Positions 6,960 to 30,102 of a stretch of DNA of 64,000 bases are shown here, piece after piece. This DNA comes from Trametopsis cervina (Eukaryota; Basidiomycota; Agaricomycetes; Polyporales; Irpicaceae): positions 62,001 through 126,000 of the forward strand of contig MU278366.1 of NCBI GenBank assembly GCA_022385755.1. Direction: 5' to 3'. The first letter of the stretch is position 1, and the number at the start of each line of letters is the position of its first letter. The position numbers and the translations under genes were made by a program. Below the pieces are notes generated by a model. That model worked only from the letters and a program-made list of their open reading frames with translations. It was not told the origin of the DNA and ran no database searches.

Positions 6960-8249
6960 GGGTGTGTCGAGCAGCGAAGGTGGCAGACGAAGATGGTGGG
7001 GAGGTCGGTCGTTGAGACATGCTCGTCAGGGAATTTATGGTACGGACTATGATGGAGTGACGAACGAACGCAATAGAAAACATTGCACGAGGGGTGGATA
7101 TATGCTCCTCAACGACACCGTCATACGCAATTATACGAACAGCGCGACGCGTGACGTCAGGCGAGCAATATCTTGGCGGATGGCTTGGTGTCCTCATTGA
7201 CGCTGCAGCAAGTCTGCAAGTGCGAAGGCAGGATACTTGACTGTCCTCGACTTGGTCCGGCGCTGTGTTGAATGTCTAAGAAATGTGCAACCATCTAGTT
7301 AGTGCACATTCTGCCTATCCAGAAGGCTCAGGGATTAGAGATACGCACCGACACCAAGCTCTGTAGCGCACTTGTATTCAGGATGCCGAGCTCAAGGGGA
7401 ATGGAATGCTCCGAACAGTGGTGGAATCCCTACAAACAGCTTCTCGGTGATTGCTAACCGTCGTGACCGAGGTGCTTCATGAGTTCGGGAGAGCACAATG
7501 GCGACCGGTGGCGAGGTGGCGGATATGTGTGTTCATGATATATCCAGTCTGCGGTTTGGGTAGCGACTACGTTAGCCTGGAGCACTCGAGTCTCGGGGCT
7601 TCAGCTACGTCTCATACTGTAACGAGGACTCCGCGACACTTGATAACATAATAGACGGACCTCCCGAGAACTTCACGGCTTCGTCTGTTTTCGACATAGA
7701 GCTCGATGAGCCAGACTTGAACCTTCGAGCTTCAAACCTGTGTGATATCCTAGGAGACGTACAAGTAGAGCCGAGGAAGGAAAGACGTGGACGAAATTGC
7801 CACAAATCCTGAGAAGACTGGGCGTAATTAATTACCGACAATTTTTAACATTTATTTACCGTAATTTACCGCTCCGGACCGGACAGTGGCACTGGCCAAC
7901 AACGGGCTCGGTAAATGCCGGCCCTCTTAGCTACAGTACTTTACTGGCTTCTCCAACTTACTACCTACCCCATTCCTCCTCTGCACTAGGCACACAACAC
8001 AACTCATTACAACGCACACACAACTCTAACCTCATTCTGGTCTCACCAACGTCATGCCCAATACCAAAGCCCATTCGTGGCCGGACATGAACACACAGTC
8101 TATAAAGGAGCGCGAAGGTACGTGCATCAGCCGCTCACCAGTTCATATATATACGCTTCGGAATCTCACACATCGCCTGCGCTATAGACTACATCCTCCG
8201 TCTTCTCGAGACGCTGCCACGCTCGAGCATCGCGCACATCAGACGCAGG
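6960..8249. other. Intergenic region (divergent promoters)
   Basis: Lies between the 5' ends of the App1-like (-) and F-box/WD40 (+) genes, so it should contain both promoters. No gene is supported. An A/T-rich patch with repeated TTTACCG/GGTAAAT-like words lies about 7825-7915. Confidence 0.5.
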
Positions 8250-23928: not shown

Positions 23929-23937
23929 GTCGCATCA
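23929..23937. repeat. Left 9-bp target-site duplication
   Basis: GTCGCATCA, identical to 30094-30102, immediately precedes the element's first base (TAGTCTCG). Confidence 0.88.
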
Positions 23938-24084
23938 TAGTCTCGAACCAGACGTCCTAGTGGTTGCGGTCGCCAGGGCTCCCGCTCGTGGTCATTTCCC
24001 CTTCGGGTCAGGACGGCTAGCGCCCAAGGAAGAACCACTATAGGACGTCTGGTGCACACGGTAGAGAGGGGTGGGGGTCATGCC
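23938..24084. repeat. Left terminal region: outer TIR, stem-loop, inner TIR
   Basis: The outer repeat TAGTCTCGAACCAGACGT is at 23938-23955. A stem-loop pairs CCAGACGTCCTAGTGGTT (23948-23965) with AACCACTATAGGACGTCTGG (24033-24052), differing by a 2-nt bulge, with a loop of about 67 nt. The inner inverted repeat at 24046-24084 overlaps the stem and matches 29966-30004 at 37 of 39 positions. Confidence 0.85.
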
Positions 24085-24243
24085 ACGTTTCGCGGATCAA
24101 AAGGAAATGAGAAACTTTTTGATTCAGCGGCTATCTTATCTAGAGGCGGGGCGCGCTGGCGCATCAATGTATTTACTGTTTGTCTCAATCGTTGTCGTCT
24201 CCTCCCTTGTCCCCCACGCGTGAAATCTTGCGGAATTGCAAGT

Positions 24244-26927
24244 ATGAGTTCTGACCTCGAGTATGAGGACTTTTCCAGATTTCCCCCATCTCCTATTCAT
24301 GCGGTACAGCATCCTCCGCGTACAGACACTCCTCCACCACCTCCGGTTGTGCCGCCCACCTCTCCTCGTCCCAAAAAAAGTCGCAAGACCGGCAGAACTA
24401 CTGCTGAGGATAGAGGCCTACTTGAGAAACTACAGCCCGCAGCGCCAAACACCAAGGTACATGTAACTAGTTACCTAAATCTTGCTAAGGCCCGAAAGGA
24501 TGCCGAGGAAGATGCAGATCGCAGTTATTCATCAAAGGAGGCCAGAGATCGCATGCAGCTTGAAACAGCAAACCGCTGCGGTGGAAAGGTGGCAAGATGG
24601 TACCAAACTGATGCGGGGGAGGCTTTTCTCCTCGGCATGGACGTTGTCCTAATATCCGGCACCGGCTCAGGCAAGACGCTTGCATTCTTGCAAAGTCTGC
24701 TAGCGGACGCGACTGAGACCTCGAAGATCATCATTATCTCGCCCCTTAATCTCCTGGAATATGATATGGTAAGAATCATCATTAAAAACTGATTTTTGCG
24801 CTAATTACCTGACTATATGCGCCTAGGTCGATCGCTGCAATGCAATGGGGCTTCCCGCCCTTGCGGTTAACGGAGATACATGGGATCAAGAACTTCACTC
24901 CGTACGTACGCTCATATGCTTACCTGAAATATTACTGATCTGCTTCCACTCAGAAACTCTTGGCACACGAATTCCGTGTGGTACTGACATCACCGGAGAT
25001 GCTGCTTTACCATGAGGTCTTCTGCAAGCTTGTCCGTAATGCCGAGTGGACAACGCCTTTCCTCGGAACAGTGATTGATGAAGCGCACTGTATCCTAGAA
25101 TGGAAGGACGATTTTCGGAAGGCCTTCAGTGAGATCGACAAAACGCGGTCCTATCTGGCAGGCAAGCCAATCTTTGCTGCCTCTGCCACTCTTACCCCTG
25201 CCATGCTCGACAATCTCCTGACCGAAATTTCGGCTTCACGCGCAAACTCGTTTGTTCTCAACGTTGGCAACAGCAACCCGAGTATTACAACGCTTGTAGT
25301 ACCCATGAAGGGCGGCGACACTGACTTCTCCGCTCTCGACTTCCTTCTCGATGAAGCCGAGCAAAGTCTCCCGCTTCAGAAGACAATCGTTTATTTCCGC
25401 ACACGCGCGCAGGCAAGAGAGGCATCTATTTACCTCCGACACAAGCTTCCCCCAGGTTCCCCTTACCGCCGTCAGCTCTTTGCCCTTTTCGCGACGAAAG
25501 ATGTTCGCGCCAAGGCAAGGATCATGAACATGTTCCGCTCTGGAGAACTCGTGATTTTGTTTGCGACTGAGGCCGCCGGAATGGTAAGTGATGGCTGACT
25601 CTTTATCTACATATCTAACTGACTACAATAGGGTATGGNNNNNNNNNNNNNNNNNNNNNNNNNNNNNNNNNNNNNNNNNNNNNNNNNNNNNNNNNNNNNN
25701 NNNNNNNNNNNNNNNNNNNNNNNNNNNNNNNNNNNNNNNNNNNNNNNNNNNNNNNNNNNNNNNNNNNNNNNNNNNNNNNNNNNNNNNNNNNNNNNNNNNN
25801 NNNNNNNNNNNNNNNNNNNNNNNNNNNNNNNNNNNNNNNNNNNNNNNNNNNNNNNNNNNNNNNNNNNNNNNNNNNNNNNNNNNNNNNNNNNNNNNNNNNN
25901 NNNNNNNNNNNNNNNNNNNNNNNNNNNNNNNNNNNNNNNNNNNNNNNNNNNNNNNNNNNNNNNNNNNNNNNNNNNNNNNNNNNNNNNNNNNNNNNNNNNN
26001 NNNNNNNNNNNNNNNNNNNNNNNNNNNNNNNNNNNNNNNNNNNNNNNNNNNNNNNNNNNNNNNNNNNNNNNNNNNNNNNNNNNNNNNNNNNNNNNNNNNN
26101 NNNNNNNNNNNNNNNNNNNNNNNNNNNNNNNNNNNNNNNNNNNNNNNNNNNNNNNNNNNNNNNNNNNNNNNNNNNNNNNNNNNNNNNNNNNNNNNNNNNN
26201 NNNNNNNNNNNNNNNNNNNNNNNNNNNNNNNNNNNNNNNNNNNNNNNNNNNNNNNNNNNNNNNCTCTGCTGGTCCCTCTGCTGGTCCCTCCGCCGGCTCT
26301 TCTGTCAATCTCTCTGCTAGTGCCTCTGCAGGGCGTTCAGTTGGTCCCTCTACATCTACTGCTACCTCTTCCCCTCGTGCTTCTACCTCTGCTTTTGTGA
26401 TCTACCAGCCTCCTTTACCTGGAAAGGAAGATCTTCGCATCATGTCTCCGCCCCGATCTCCCCGCCTTGTTCTCAGTCCCAAGCAGCCTACGTCTTCCAA
26501 TACCCCAGATCTCCCTTCTTGCCCAACAGAGTGGCAGTGGAAAATAGAGTATTCCGCACTACTAAAGAGTCCCTCAGCTGCCATGAATCCATCTGCTACT
26601 ACTGACGACATGCCTCCCCCACTCGCTACTGACTCTGCACCTAGACATAAACCAAGGCCAAAACCACTGCCTGTATACAACAGTTGGCGTGTCAACAGTT
26701 CAGGGGTGCCCTCATCTTCGACATCTGCCGCCTCAAGTTCGCAAAGGGTACTGCAATTTGATGCCGGCCCATCGATCGCCTCAACTGCTGTATCCGCCGT
26801 CTCAACTGCTATGTCCGCGGCCGCTTCAACTCCTGCATTTGAACCTCAAGACCGTACCCATCCTCCTGCGCCCAGGAGAAGGCCGGCCCCTCGAATGGTT
26901 AAGCGCACCTTAGAACCGCCAAAGTAG
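24244..26927 (+). CDS. RecQ-like DEAH-box helicase of the mobile element (interrupted by assembly gap)
   Basis: Exons 24244-24768, 24827-24901 and 24954-25583, then from 25632 into the gap; coding resumes at 26264 and stops at 26927. The N-terminus is Pro-rich with a basic PKKSRK patch that could be a nuclear signal. Helicase motifs: Walker A GTGSGKT (residues about 139-145), SPLNLLEYDM, TSPEML, motif II DEAHCI followed by a RecQ-like W-x-x-D-F-R, motif III SATLTP, and domain-2 blocks IVYFRTRAQA and FATEAAGM. RecQ proteins unwind DNA 3' to 5'. The tail is Ser/Ala/Gly/Pro-rich, starting in tandem SAGP-type units; the gap of 625 Ns falls between helicase motif V and this tail, so the exact end of domain 2 is unseen. 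It faces the DUF6589-type gene, 39 bp between stop codons. Confidence 0.82.
25639..26263. other. Assembly gap (625 Ns)
   Basis: The sequence is undetermined. The right edge emerges inside near-identical CTCTGCTGGTCC units, so collapse of a coding tandem repeat is a likely cause. The true length may differ from 625. Confidence 0.99.
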
Positions 26928-26966
26928 CTTGAAATTCATGTATTGTAGTGTACTATATCTCTAATT

Positions 26967-29750
26967 TTATTCACCCTCCTCAAACTCCTCGTCCGTAGAC
27001 CTCACTGTCACTCTCTTCGCCGCCCATCGATGTATCGCCTGCTTGATGCTTGCTGAGTCGCTGCCAAGTGCCTGGAAGTCGGGGGCACGCTTCGCGAGTG
27101 TGCGGCCGGCCCTCCATACATGCGCGTTGCCCTTATGGTACGAGACTTGAAGGGAGGCAACATCTTGCTCCCAGGCTGGAGTGGTATGCGATTTTCCGCG
27201 GCGGAAATGGTTGATGTGGTCTTCAAAGTGATCTTTGAGCTTGCGCTGCGTAGGGATGGAGGCGGAAATCTTCTGTATGTAATCCCATGTCGCAAATGGG
27301 CCGTGAACCGCAAAGATGTGCTAGTAGAATAGTTTAGTTAACTGAAATGCAACATATGAAGGGGGACTTACCTTGATGTCTCTGATGTTGTGTTCCTGGA
27401 CCATGTCAAACGCCAGGAACTTCCCTGGCAGGCCAGTCGTGTTTGCAAGCCAGCAGTGTTGCATCACAAACGAGCTGCAGCATGAATTAGCACGGATCAA
27501 CGACGGGCAGTTGAAGAGAGTACACACCTTAAGTCATCGGGCCACTCGTGTAGTATCCCCTGTAGAAGCTCGAGAAGCTCCCGAGCGTAATTGTGGTTCT
27601 TGCCCCCGTGAAAGCGGAAGAAAAGGCGGGGAATAAGGTCCCGCATGCGTCCCACATCGCCGGTCTTCATGGCATCGTCGAAGTCGAGATAACAGAGAAT
27701 ATCCCGGCAGAACAGAACACTCTGCATGAAGACGTCATCCTGTTCCTTGCGGGGGATCAGCTTGAGGTCGGCGAGAGCTCCGGTCGAGGCCCTGTCATCC
27801 ACAATCTTCTCCGCAAGGGCCCTGAGTTGCTGAGGGGTCCGCTGGCGTAGCTCGGCGAGGTCACTAACGTTCCCGACCACAAGCCACAGGTCGCAAAACC
27901 GGGCTTCTGCAATATGCCAAAGGGCCTCTTGCATTGTGTGGTGGAATAGACCTGCATACTGTATTAGTTAGATAGACAATAATTGAATCATACTCACCTT
28001 GCACCGAGGGACTGGTGAGTCCCTTCCGTCCGAGGACATTGAAGGCGTGTTCAAGCCTGAAAATTGTGGCGGTCTTGTAGTATTGTTTGTGGAACGAGGT
28101 GTCCTCTGCAAGTTGGCAGTGGAACCATCCGAACACCTCGAGGATCCGGTCGAACCGTTGCACAAAGTTGAAGTCTTCAGAGCGATCCTTCTTGATGGAA
28201 CGGATCCGAACGACCGTCAATTGGTCACCCATCCAAACGAGAAGCCGTCGCTGGGCAGGTTCCTCTTTGATTTGGGGCCCGCTGAGGTTGCACTGTGCGA
28301 GGAAGTTGTCGAGACACTTGCGCGTGCCTTCCTGCGATGCGGACTCGACGTGGATAGTGTCCAACATGTACTGGCATAGTGCATGCGCTTTACCAGTAGG
28401 GAGCTGCTGGACTGGAGGAGGACGGCGAAGGGAGGCATGATTCTTCTGCTCGTAAGAGTCGATGTCGAAGGCGGGGGCCTGGAAGAGAAATTTGAGGACG
28501 CGGTATACAGCTTGTGCGCGGATACGAGGTCCAGCTTGATAATCCAACACGAGTATCTCGCGGGTGGTGAGAAGAGTCTGACCATGGAGAGCCCGATGGG
28601 CCTCGTATGCAAGACGATCAGGAGCAACAATCCCCGGGGCCTTGAAGACATAGATGGTGCCGGCAGTCCCGCTGTCGAAGTGAGATTGGTGGGATCCGCG
28701 CTGTTCGAAGACCTTGAACCCTAGATTGATGTTGTCGCATCCCGCAGCTGTCGGGTACTTCTGAATGTCGGTGTTCCTGGCCTTGTGAGATGCATCGGAA
28801 AGGGACTCGACTAGATTGTAGATCCAACGCTGGCTCATCGTGAGGCCATACGCGTTGGTTGTATCAAGTCCTTTCGCACTAAGTCCGCTGGCCTTGAGGT
28901 AAATCCCGTTGGCCTGCTGCAGTTTGTTTCGAAAGTGCGATCGCCCGTATGAGCAGATCGACACCATCATTGTAATGGGCTAGATATGCGGGTAGTAAGT
29001 TACTGAGGGATAGATTAAAAGGAGGGACTCACCGCTGTATGGTCCTTGTATTTTGCACGCTTGAGCTGCAACGGGGTTGTGCTCGCATTATGAAGGACGG
29101 TCCAGAGTGTGGGTGCTTTTGCTTGGCAGCTCCTGCTGATCTCCTTGAGGTCAATCGCGAGGAGAGTCTCTTCCGTGACCTCTTTGATGGGGGATAGGAA
29201 GACAGGCGCGAGATTGCGCATCTCCTTGTTGATGAGTAAGTTGACGTTTTCGACACACCATTGATCCATCTCCTTGCGTGCCGCCTGAGAGCATATACCT
29301 TTGTTCTGCACCCGGTCTCGGCCATTCCTCCACTTGCGGATCATCCAAGGGAATTCCGCGCAGTGTAGGAAGGCCGTCCGAGCGTACCTAAGACGCATTG
29401 AGTATTATATGCACGGAAATATCATGTACTCACTTTATCCTTCTGTCGTCCATATCCTGGTGGTCTTGAAGCACGGTGATGTAATAGAGGAGGGTCGCGA
29501 TGTCCATGTCATGCTCAGCCCGCATAGAGTTGATGATAGCAACGATTCGGCGGGCTATCTCGTGTCCCCCGAGTGAAGCAAGCTGCCTCTTGCAGTACTC
29601 CGTCCTCCCAAGTACTCCGGTGGCCCTCACCCCGGCTTCGTGCTGCGAAATGACTTCGTCCGCCTGGTCATCAACTTCGTCTGGGTGTATCTCGCTGTCT
29701 TCTGGGTCCAAGTCGTATTCCTCGGCGTATGGCGGATTTTGAGGCGGCAT
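26967..29750 (-). CDS. DUF6589-type protein, candidate transposase of the element
   Basis: Exons 29750-29434, 29387-29033, 28979-27998, 27951-27528, 27474-27372 and 27320-26967 (introns 46-54 bp) give 844 residues with every junction in frame. The N-terminal 50 residues are acidic. The remainder matches what I know as DUF6589, an uncharacterised fungal family: AAGCDNINLGF, VWMGDQLTVVRIRS, EVFGWFHCQLA, HAFNVLGRKGLTS, FDMVQEHNIRDIKHIF. Conserved acidic residues D306 (DNIN), D476 (GDQLT) and E720 (QEHN) are ordered and spaced as in RNase H-fold DDE transposases with an insertion. That role is my inference, supported by the gene being the only non-helicase protein inside a TIR/TSD-bounded element. 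The C-terminus is basic then acidic. The frame is free of disabling changes. Confidence 0.8.
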
Positions 29751-29965
29751 CTAGAAGCGTTTGATATTCACTATAGGCTGGCGCACAGAAAGTAAATCAA
29801 AGACAAGAGGGGAAGTGGGATTGAAAGCTATGTCGAGGTATGTACAAGAGAAGCGGAAGGGCGCGGTGGCATCTAATCTAAACTCGGACGCCCATAGATC
29901 TACACTCGGCATCATCAGCCGAAGCTCGGGATTCGCGGAATCTGGACCCTTGGCCCATGCCACAT

Positions 29966-30093
29966 GGCATGACCCTCACCCCTCTCCACCGTGTGCACCA
30001 GACGTTTGACCGTGCTTCCCTTCTCCCATTAGCCATCGCCCTCGTCCTAAAGGAGAAATCACCATACACGGTCAAACGTCTGGACCGAGACTA
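29966..30093. repeat. Right terminal region: inner TIR, stem-loop, outer TIR
   Basis: The inner inverted repeat is at 29966-30004. A perfect 17-bp stem pairs CCAGACGTTTGACCGTG (29998-30014) with CACGGTCAAACGTCTGG (30067-30083), enclosing a 52-nt loop. The outer repeat ends CGTCTGGACCGAGACTA at 30093. Stem sequences differ from the left end apart from the shared CCAGACGT core, but the layout is the same. Confidence 0.85.
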
Positions 30094-30102
30094 GTCGCAT
30101 CA
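30094..30102. repeat. Right 9-bp target-site duplication
   Basis: GTCGCATCA, identical to 23929-23937, immediately follows the element's last base (CGAGACTA). The predicted empty site reads TCATCAG, then a single GTCGCATCA, then GGCGTCTGG. Confidence 0.88.

Follow-up and report, generated by a model that had tools for sequence, protein, structure and literature searches.

The window analysed here is a 64,000-nucleotide stretch of the Trametopsis cervina genome (contig MU278366.1, positions 62,001 to 126,000), and positions 23938-30093 of it comprise a DNA transposon that carries a RecQ-family helicase gene and a gene for a DUF6589 protein, probably its transposase. The element lies directly inside a perfect 9-bp duplication, and its inverted ends read TAGTCTCG at 23938-23945 and CGAGACTA at 30086-30093. 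Its features are as follows.

23929..23937, no strand: left target-site duplication GTCGCATCA, exact 9-bp repeat
23938..23954, forward strand: left terminal inverted repeat TAGTCTCGAACCAGACG, matching the right end at 15 of 17 positions, with the outer 8 exact
23947..24053, forward strand: left subterminal hairpin (I7), outer arms 23947-23959 and 24041-24053, 13 bp, 100%
24032..24088, forward strand: left arm of inner inverted repeat I1, 57 nt, 84%
24244..26927, forward strand: RecQ-family superfamily-2 DNA helicase gene, exons 24244-24768, 24827-24901, 24954-25583 and 25632-26927
25639..26263, no strand: run of 625 N within the last helicase exon
26967..29750, reverse strand: probable transposase gene (PF20231/DUF6589), 844 aa, six exons, 29750-29434, 29387-29033, 28979-27998, 27951-27528, 27474-27372 and 27320-26967
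29962..30018, reverse strand: right arm of inner inverted repeat I1, 57 nt, 84%
29998..30083, forward strand: right subterminal hairpin (I2), arms 29998-30014 and 30067-30083, 17 bp, perfect
30077..30093, reverse strand: right terminal inverted repeat, reading inward as TAGTCTCGGTCCAGACG
30094..30102, no strand: right target-site duplication GTCGCATCA, exact 9-bp repeat

Element boundaries and gene content

The boundaries were examined by scanning for a 9-bp repeat directly outside 8-bp inverted ends at a spacing of 100-20000 bp. Exact matches of this kind occur at one place in the window, which is the element locus, and 20 Markov resamples of the window yielded one match altogether. An initial annotation had proposed a perfect 9-bp direct repeat, inverted termini, long inner inverted repeats and two convergent genes at this locus. 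The repeat, the termini and both genes are present at the positions listed, and the inner repeats consist of the 57-nt pair and a hairpin at each end.

The two genes converge with 39 bp between them, and their introns have GT..AG boundaries. The helicase matches E. coli RecQ (1oyw, 2e-23) and human BLM, and the Pfam families DEAD and Helicase_C are found in the protein encoded by a second copy of the element on contig C22, within the stretch before a gap in that copy. Two homologues (P0058 and P0060) have TIGR00614 recQ_fam as their best match, below its cut-off. The gap in the C22 copy is a 10-N run (C22:302710-302719) that lies in the same gene, within a Ser/Ala/Gly/Pro-rich repeat, and that copy is 629 bp longer overall. 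The 625 N in its helicase gene and the greater length of the C22 copy leave doubt about how long the window copy really is.

Copies and mobility

Further copies were sought in the 29.4-Mb Trametopsis cervina genome (59 contigs). The second full-length copy, at C22:299765-306549, is flanked on both sides by CACCTGCAT. The two copies are nearly identical, with no differences in 1701 aligned bases and 9 differences in another 3830 (5531 in total). The terminal pattern TAGTCTCGNNCCAGACG, allowing at most one mismatch, is found at 19 genome sites, compared with 2 for the reversed control, and 9 of the 19 fall in five paired copies, namely the window copy, the C22 copy and three short ones.

C6, 213 bp: short copy with a perfect 9-bp duplication, ATATTTTGG
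C32, 199 bp: short copy with a perfect 9-bp duplication, TGCATTCTG; the second end is spaced differently and lies outside the 19 sites
C1, 187 bp: short copy with CTCACCCCC on the right, and also on the left if the element's first T was lost

The C1 copy belongs to the window family and has lost its middle (97% to the left 112 bases and 95% to the right 78), and its duplication is 9 bp if the first T was lost, or 8 bp otherwise. The 9-bp duplications are thus perfect in four of the five paired copies of this terminus family. The remaining 10 terminal sites have no duplication-flanked partner within about 1.5 kb. A looser search paired a terminus on C21 with a partner 150 bp away, and this pair was rejected, as its flanks agree at only 2 of 9 positions.

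The insertion site of the C22 copy is found uninterrupted in relatives on the same contig, at C22:417644-417934 (89%) and C22:319514-319802 (87%). Over 71 bases around the joined site, these relatives differ by substitutions only (6 and 7, respectively). The site of the window copy has no other copy in the genome. The host sequence of the C22 copy (stretch C22:299615-306699) reads by eye as WD40 repeats; 21 genome matches to it are listed, of which 2 are the flanks themselves.

Pfam finds DUF6589 in 12 exon-level matches at six loci, on C19 (the window), C22, C34, C5, C16 and C10, and a RecQ-like helicase adjoins it at the first four of these. The C34 locus is a second, divergent family. Its element (C34:191987-197508, or L047:1488-7009; 5522 bp) has 157-bp inverted repeats that are identical at 154 of 157 positions, begin with TAGTCTCGCGTGGCCAGCCT and share the terminal octamer TAGTCTCG with the window element. 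It lies inside a perfect 9-bp duplication, GTTCAATCC; six shuffled controls gave one weak match. Its helicase (Helicase_C, 3e-15) and DUF6589 (4e-87) genes are likewise convergent, and its transposase is 19% identical to that of the window in an alignment, so the gene pair, the terminal octamer and the 9-bp duplication have stayed together across a deep divergence. The flanks of the C34 element (L047:1440-1487 and 7010-7060) contain a B-box-like GGTTCAATCCC and, upstream, TAGCTTAATGG, and resemble a tRNA or a tRNA-derived repeat. A tRNA gene was suspected by eye at this target, and ARAGORN found none.

At C5 the helicase and DUF6589 genes are divergent, not convergent, and 24.4 kb of sequence contains neither TAGTCTC nor convincing ends with a duplication; two candidate end pairs were discarded as looking like chance. 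The C16 and C10 loci show no RecQ-like helicase in the stretches fetched and no element ends in 9.9 kb each. About 2.3 kb separates the DUF6589 fragment at C10:812293-815132, perhaps a decayed relative, from an isolated site that resembles a terminus, TAGTTTCGAACCAGACG. In Cytidiella melzeri, a DUF6589 protein (P0008) and the RecQ-like helicase P0058 are both listed with a longest contig of 82181, which suggests that the pair is linked in that species too.

The window element is a genuine DNA transposon that has been mobile recently. Given that just two full copies of the window family were found, two non-mobile host genes that lie together by chance or were segmentally duplicated might be considered. 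This reading is made extremely improbable by the distinct 9-bp duplications at four sites of the terminus family and in the C34 family, together with the uninterrupted paralogous target sites of the C22 copy. The single mobile element with two linked genes and a 9-bp duplication that the initial annotation envisaged is upheld. The further copies with the same ends and different 9-bp duplications that it called for exist within this genome, and the gene pair recurs in the C34 element.

The DUF6589 protein and the placement of the element

The only Pfam family matched by the window transposase is DUF6589 (1.7e-114), in agreement with the earlier remark that no Mutator transposase is present. Three acidic residues, D306, D476 and E720, are conserved in an alignment of DUF6589 proteins.

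28734..28736, reverse strand: candidate first catalytic Asp, D306, motif CDN/HDN
28224..28226, reverse strand: candidate second catalytic Asp, D476, motif GDQLT
27393..27395, reverse strand: candidate catalytic Glu, E720, motif QEHN

The predicted fold contains an RNase H-like core in which a long and largely helical segment separates the second Asp from the Glu, and it is nearest to those of Hermes (a hAT transposase) and the P element transposase. The predicted fold and conserved triad indicate that the DUF6589 protein is likely a DDE transposase, which is possibly a new detail. The initial annotation correctly paired this gene with the helicase as part of one element, but missed the transposase role that the predicted structure points to.

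The 9-bp duplication recalls Mutator-like elements (MULEs) and the predicted fold recalls hAT and P elements, so a member of one of these groups with a captured helicase gene deserves consideration. However, Pfam reveals no MULE, hAT or P family in the protein, and hAT and P elements make 8-bp duplications, whereas those here are 9 bp. Also, the C/DxxH signature that is attributed to hAT, P, MuDR, Kolobok and Dada transposases (PMC9587614) is not found between the second D and the E. The corresponding site is GxxH in 32 of 33 alignment rows and QxxH in one, with the H present in all 33. An origin in these groups is therefore very unlikely.

We consider it highly probable that the element belongs to the AcademH lineage within the Academ superfamily, as a DNA transposon that is autonomous or nearly so, with the DUF6589 protein as its DDE transposase. 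AcademH was reportedly founded in a paper by Kojima (2020, Mob DNA 11:15). According to published accounts, a RecQ helicase occurs in Academ (PMC3627910), AcademH duplications are 9 or 10 bp and those of AcademX 3 or 4 bp, a difference tied to helicase and nuclease, respectively (PMC10045372), and AcademH elements occur in low copy number in Basidiomycota, Ascomycota and Mucoromycota (PMC10799480). The window element resembles this description in its RecQ-family helicase gene beside the transposase gene, its 9-bp duplications and its basidiomycete host, and no feature found contradicts AcademH as described there; for the DDD/E transposase, the correspondence is through predicted structure and the conserved triad. 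The element is thus most likely a member of a published lineage, compared by description, and not the transposon of unassigned class that had been proposed. AcademX belongs to the same superfamily, but is described as having a nuclease instead of a helicase, and 3- to 4-bp duplications (PMC10045372). The duplications here are 9 bp, and no nuclease domain is among the Pfam matches of the scanned parts, in which the helicase is covered up to the gap. A mushroom with widespread putative non-autonomous Academ elements has also been described (PMC8290104).

KolobokH elements, which are Kolobok transposons known from fungi only, also have a RecQ helicase (PMC9587614). In the same account, Kolobok duplications are TTAA-specific and 4 bp, the transposase signature is C/DxxH, and the helicase of KolobokH is downstream of the transposase domain. 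In contrast, the window element has 9-bp duplications without TTAA, GxxH at the signature site, and separate convergent genes. Because of the difference in duplication length, KolobokH is excluded, and we give it next to no probability.

Alternatively, the DUF6589 protein might be a non-Academ DDE transposase of a separate, unnamed superfamily that independently gained a RecQ helicase and 9-bp duplications. The likeness to AcademH is by description and not by transposase sequence, and helicase capture has happened repeatedly, as the RecQ helicase of KolobokH illustrates (PMC9587614). Within the literature collection searched, there was no paper on DUF6589, none on Academ with XPG and transposase, and none on Academ with Polyporales and transposon. 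A profile search for distant relatives of DUF6589 returned 52 proteins, and it gave no link to animal Academ, because every match carried PF20231 and the named ones are all fungal. Among viral contigs, 41 stretches fit the peptide pattern and none encodes a transposase relative; bare matches to the terminal pattern are found in 12 viral contigs. However, published descriptions of AcademH agree with the element in the helicase, the duplication length and the presence in Basidiomycota, and we regard a separate superfamily as unlikely.

Terminal hairpins and a possible role for the helicase

Each end of the window element contains a subterminal hairpin. The left stem goes on inward beyond a 2-nt bulge (z -3.59; 1 of 200 shuffles equally stable), and the right hairpin has a z of -7.15, with none of 200 shuffles equally stable. 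The arms have CCAGACGT in common and then diverge, the left continuing as CCAGACGTCCTA... and the right as CCAGACGTTTGACCGTG, each self-complementary. The ends of the C34 element likewise fold into hairpins (without a shuffle control), and a perfect or near-perfect hairpin is thus found at each end despite arm divergence both between ends and between families. Preservation of the hairpins with differing arm sequences is possibly a new detail.

Folding of short copies and single termini, also without a shuffle control, is mixed. The hairpins are clear in both full-length families and partly so at C4:177604. In the C1 copy one end keeps part of its hairpin and the other has lost it, and in the C6 and C32 copies the hairpins are weak or absent. 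The two full-length families are therefore the main basis of the hairpin observation, and the partial retention in short copies speaks against a strict requirement in cis.

The DUF6589 protein would bind the TAGTCTCG ends and cut the element out, and the excised element would be joined to a target cut with a 9-bp stagger, producing the 9-bp duplication; cut-and-paste movement of this kind, and not copying, is proposed by analogy, because DDE enzymes in general act in this way. The RecQ-type helicase might act on the ends or when the joined product is repaired; it could, for instance, unwind terminal hairpins or single-stranded gaps. The initial annotation had likewise suggested a part in strand separation or repair. 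Hairpins of this kind are natural substrates for RecQ enzymes. A more speculative idea, which we consider rather doubtful, is that the transposase reads the ends as hairpins that the element's own helicase opens or extrudes during excision or repair. We know of no cut-and-paste transposon for which hairpin end processing of this kind is established, and, if true, hairpin-read ends would be new irrespective of membership in Academ.

The genomes of polypores and other mushrooms sampled here contain several DUF6589 genes each, annotated as "hypothetical". These can be interpreted as the transposases of DNA transposons that carry a helicase, and annotators could then mask them and find their short derivatives. 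The two near-identical copies in Trametopsis cervina are well suited to testing why certain transposons bring a RecQ helicase of their own, and why helicase-bearing Academ elements make duplications of 9 to 10 bp and not of 3 to 4 bp.
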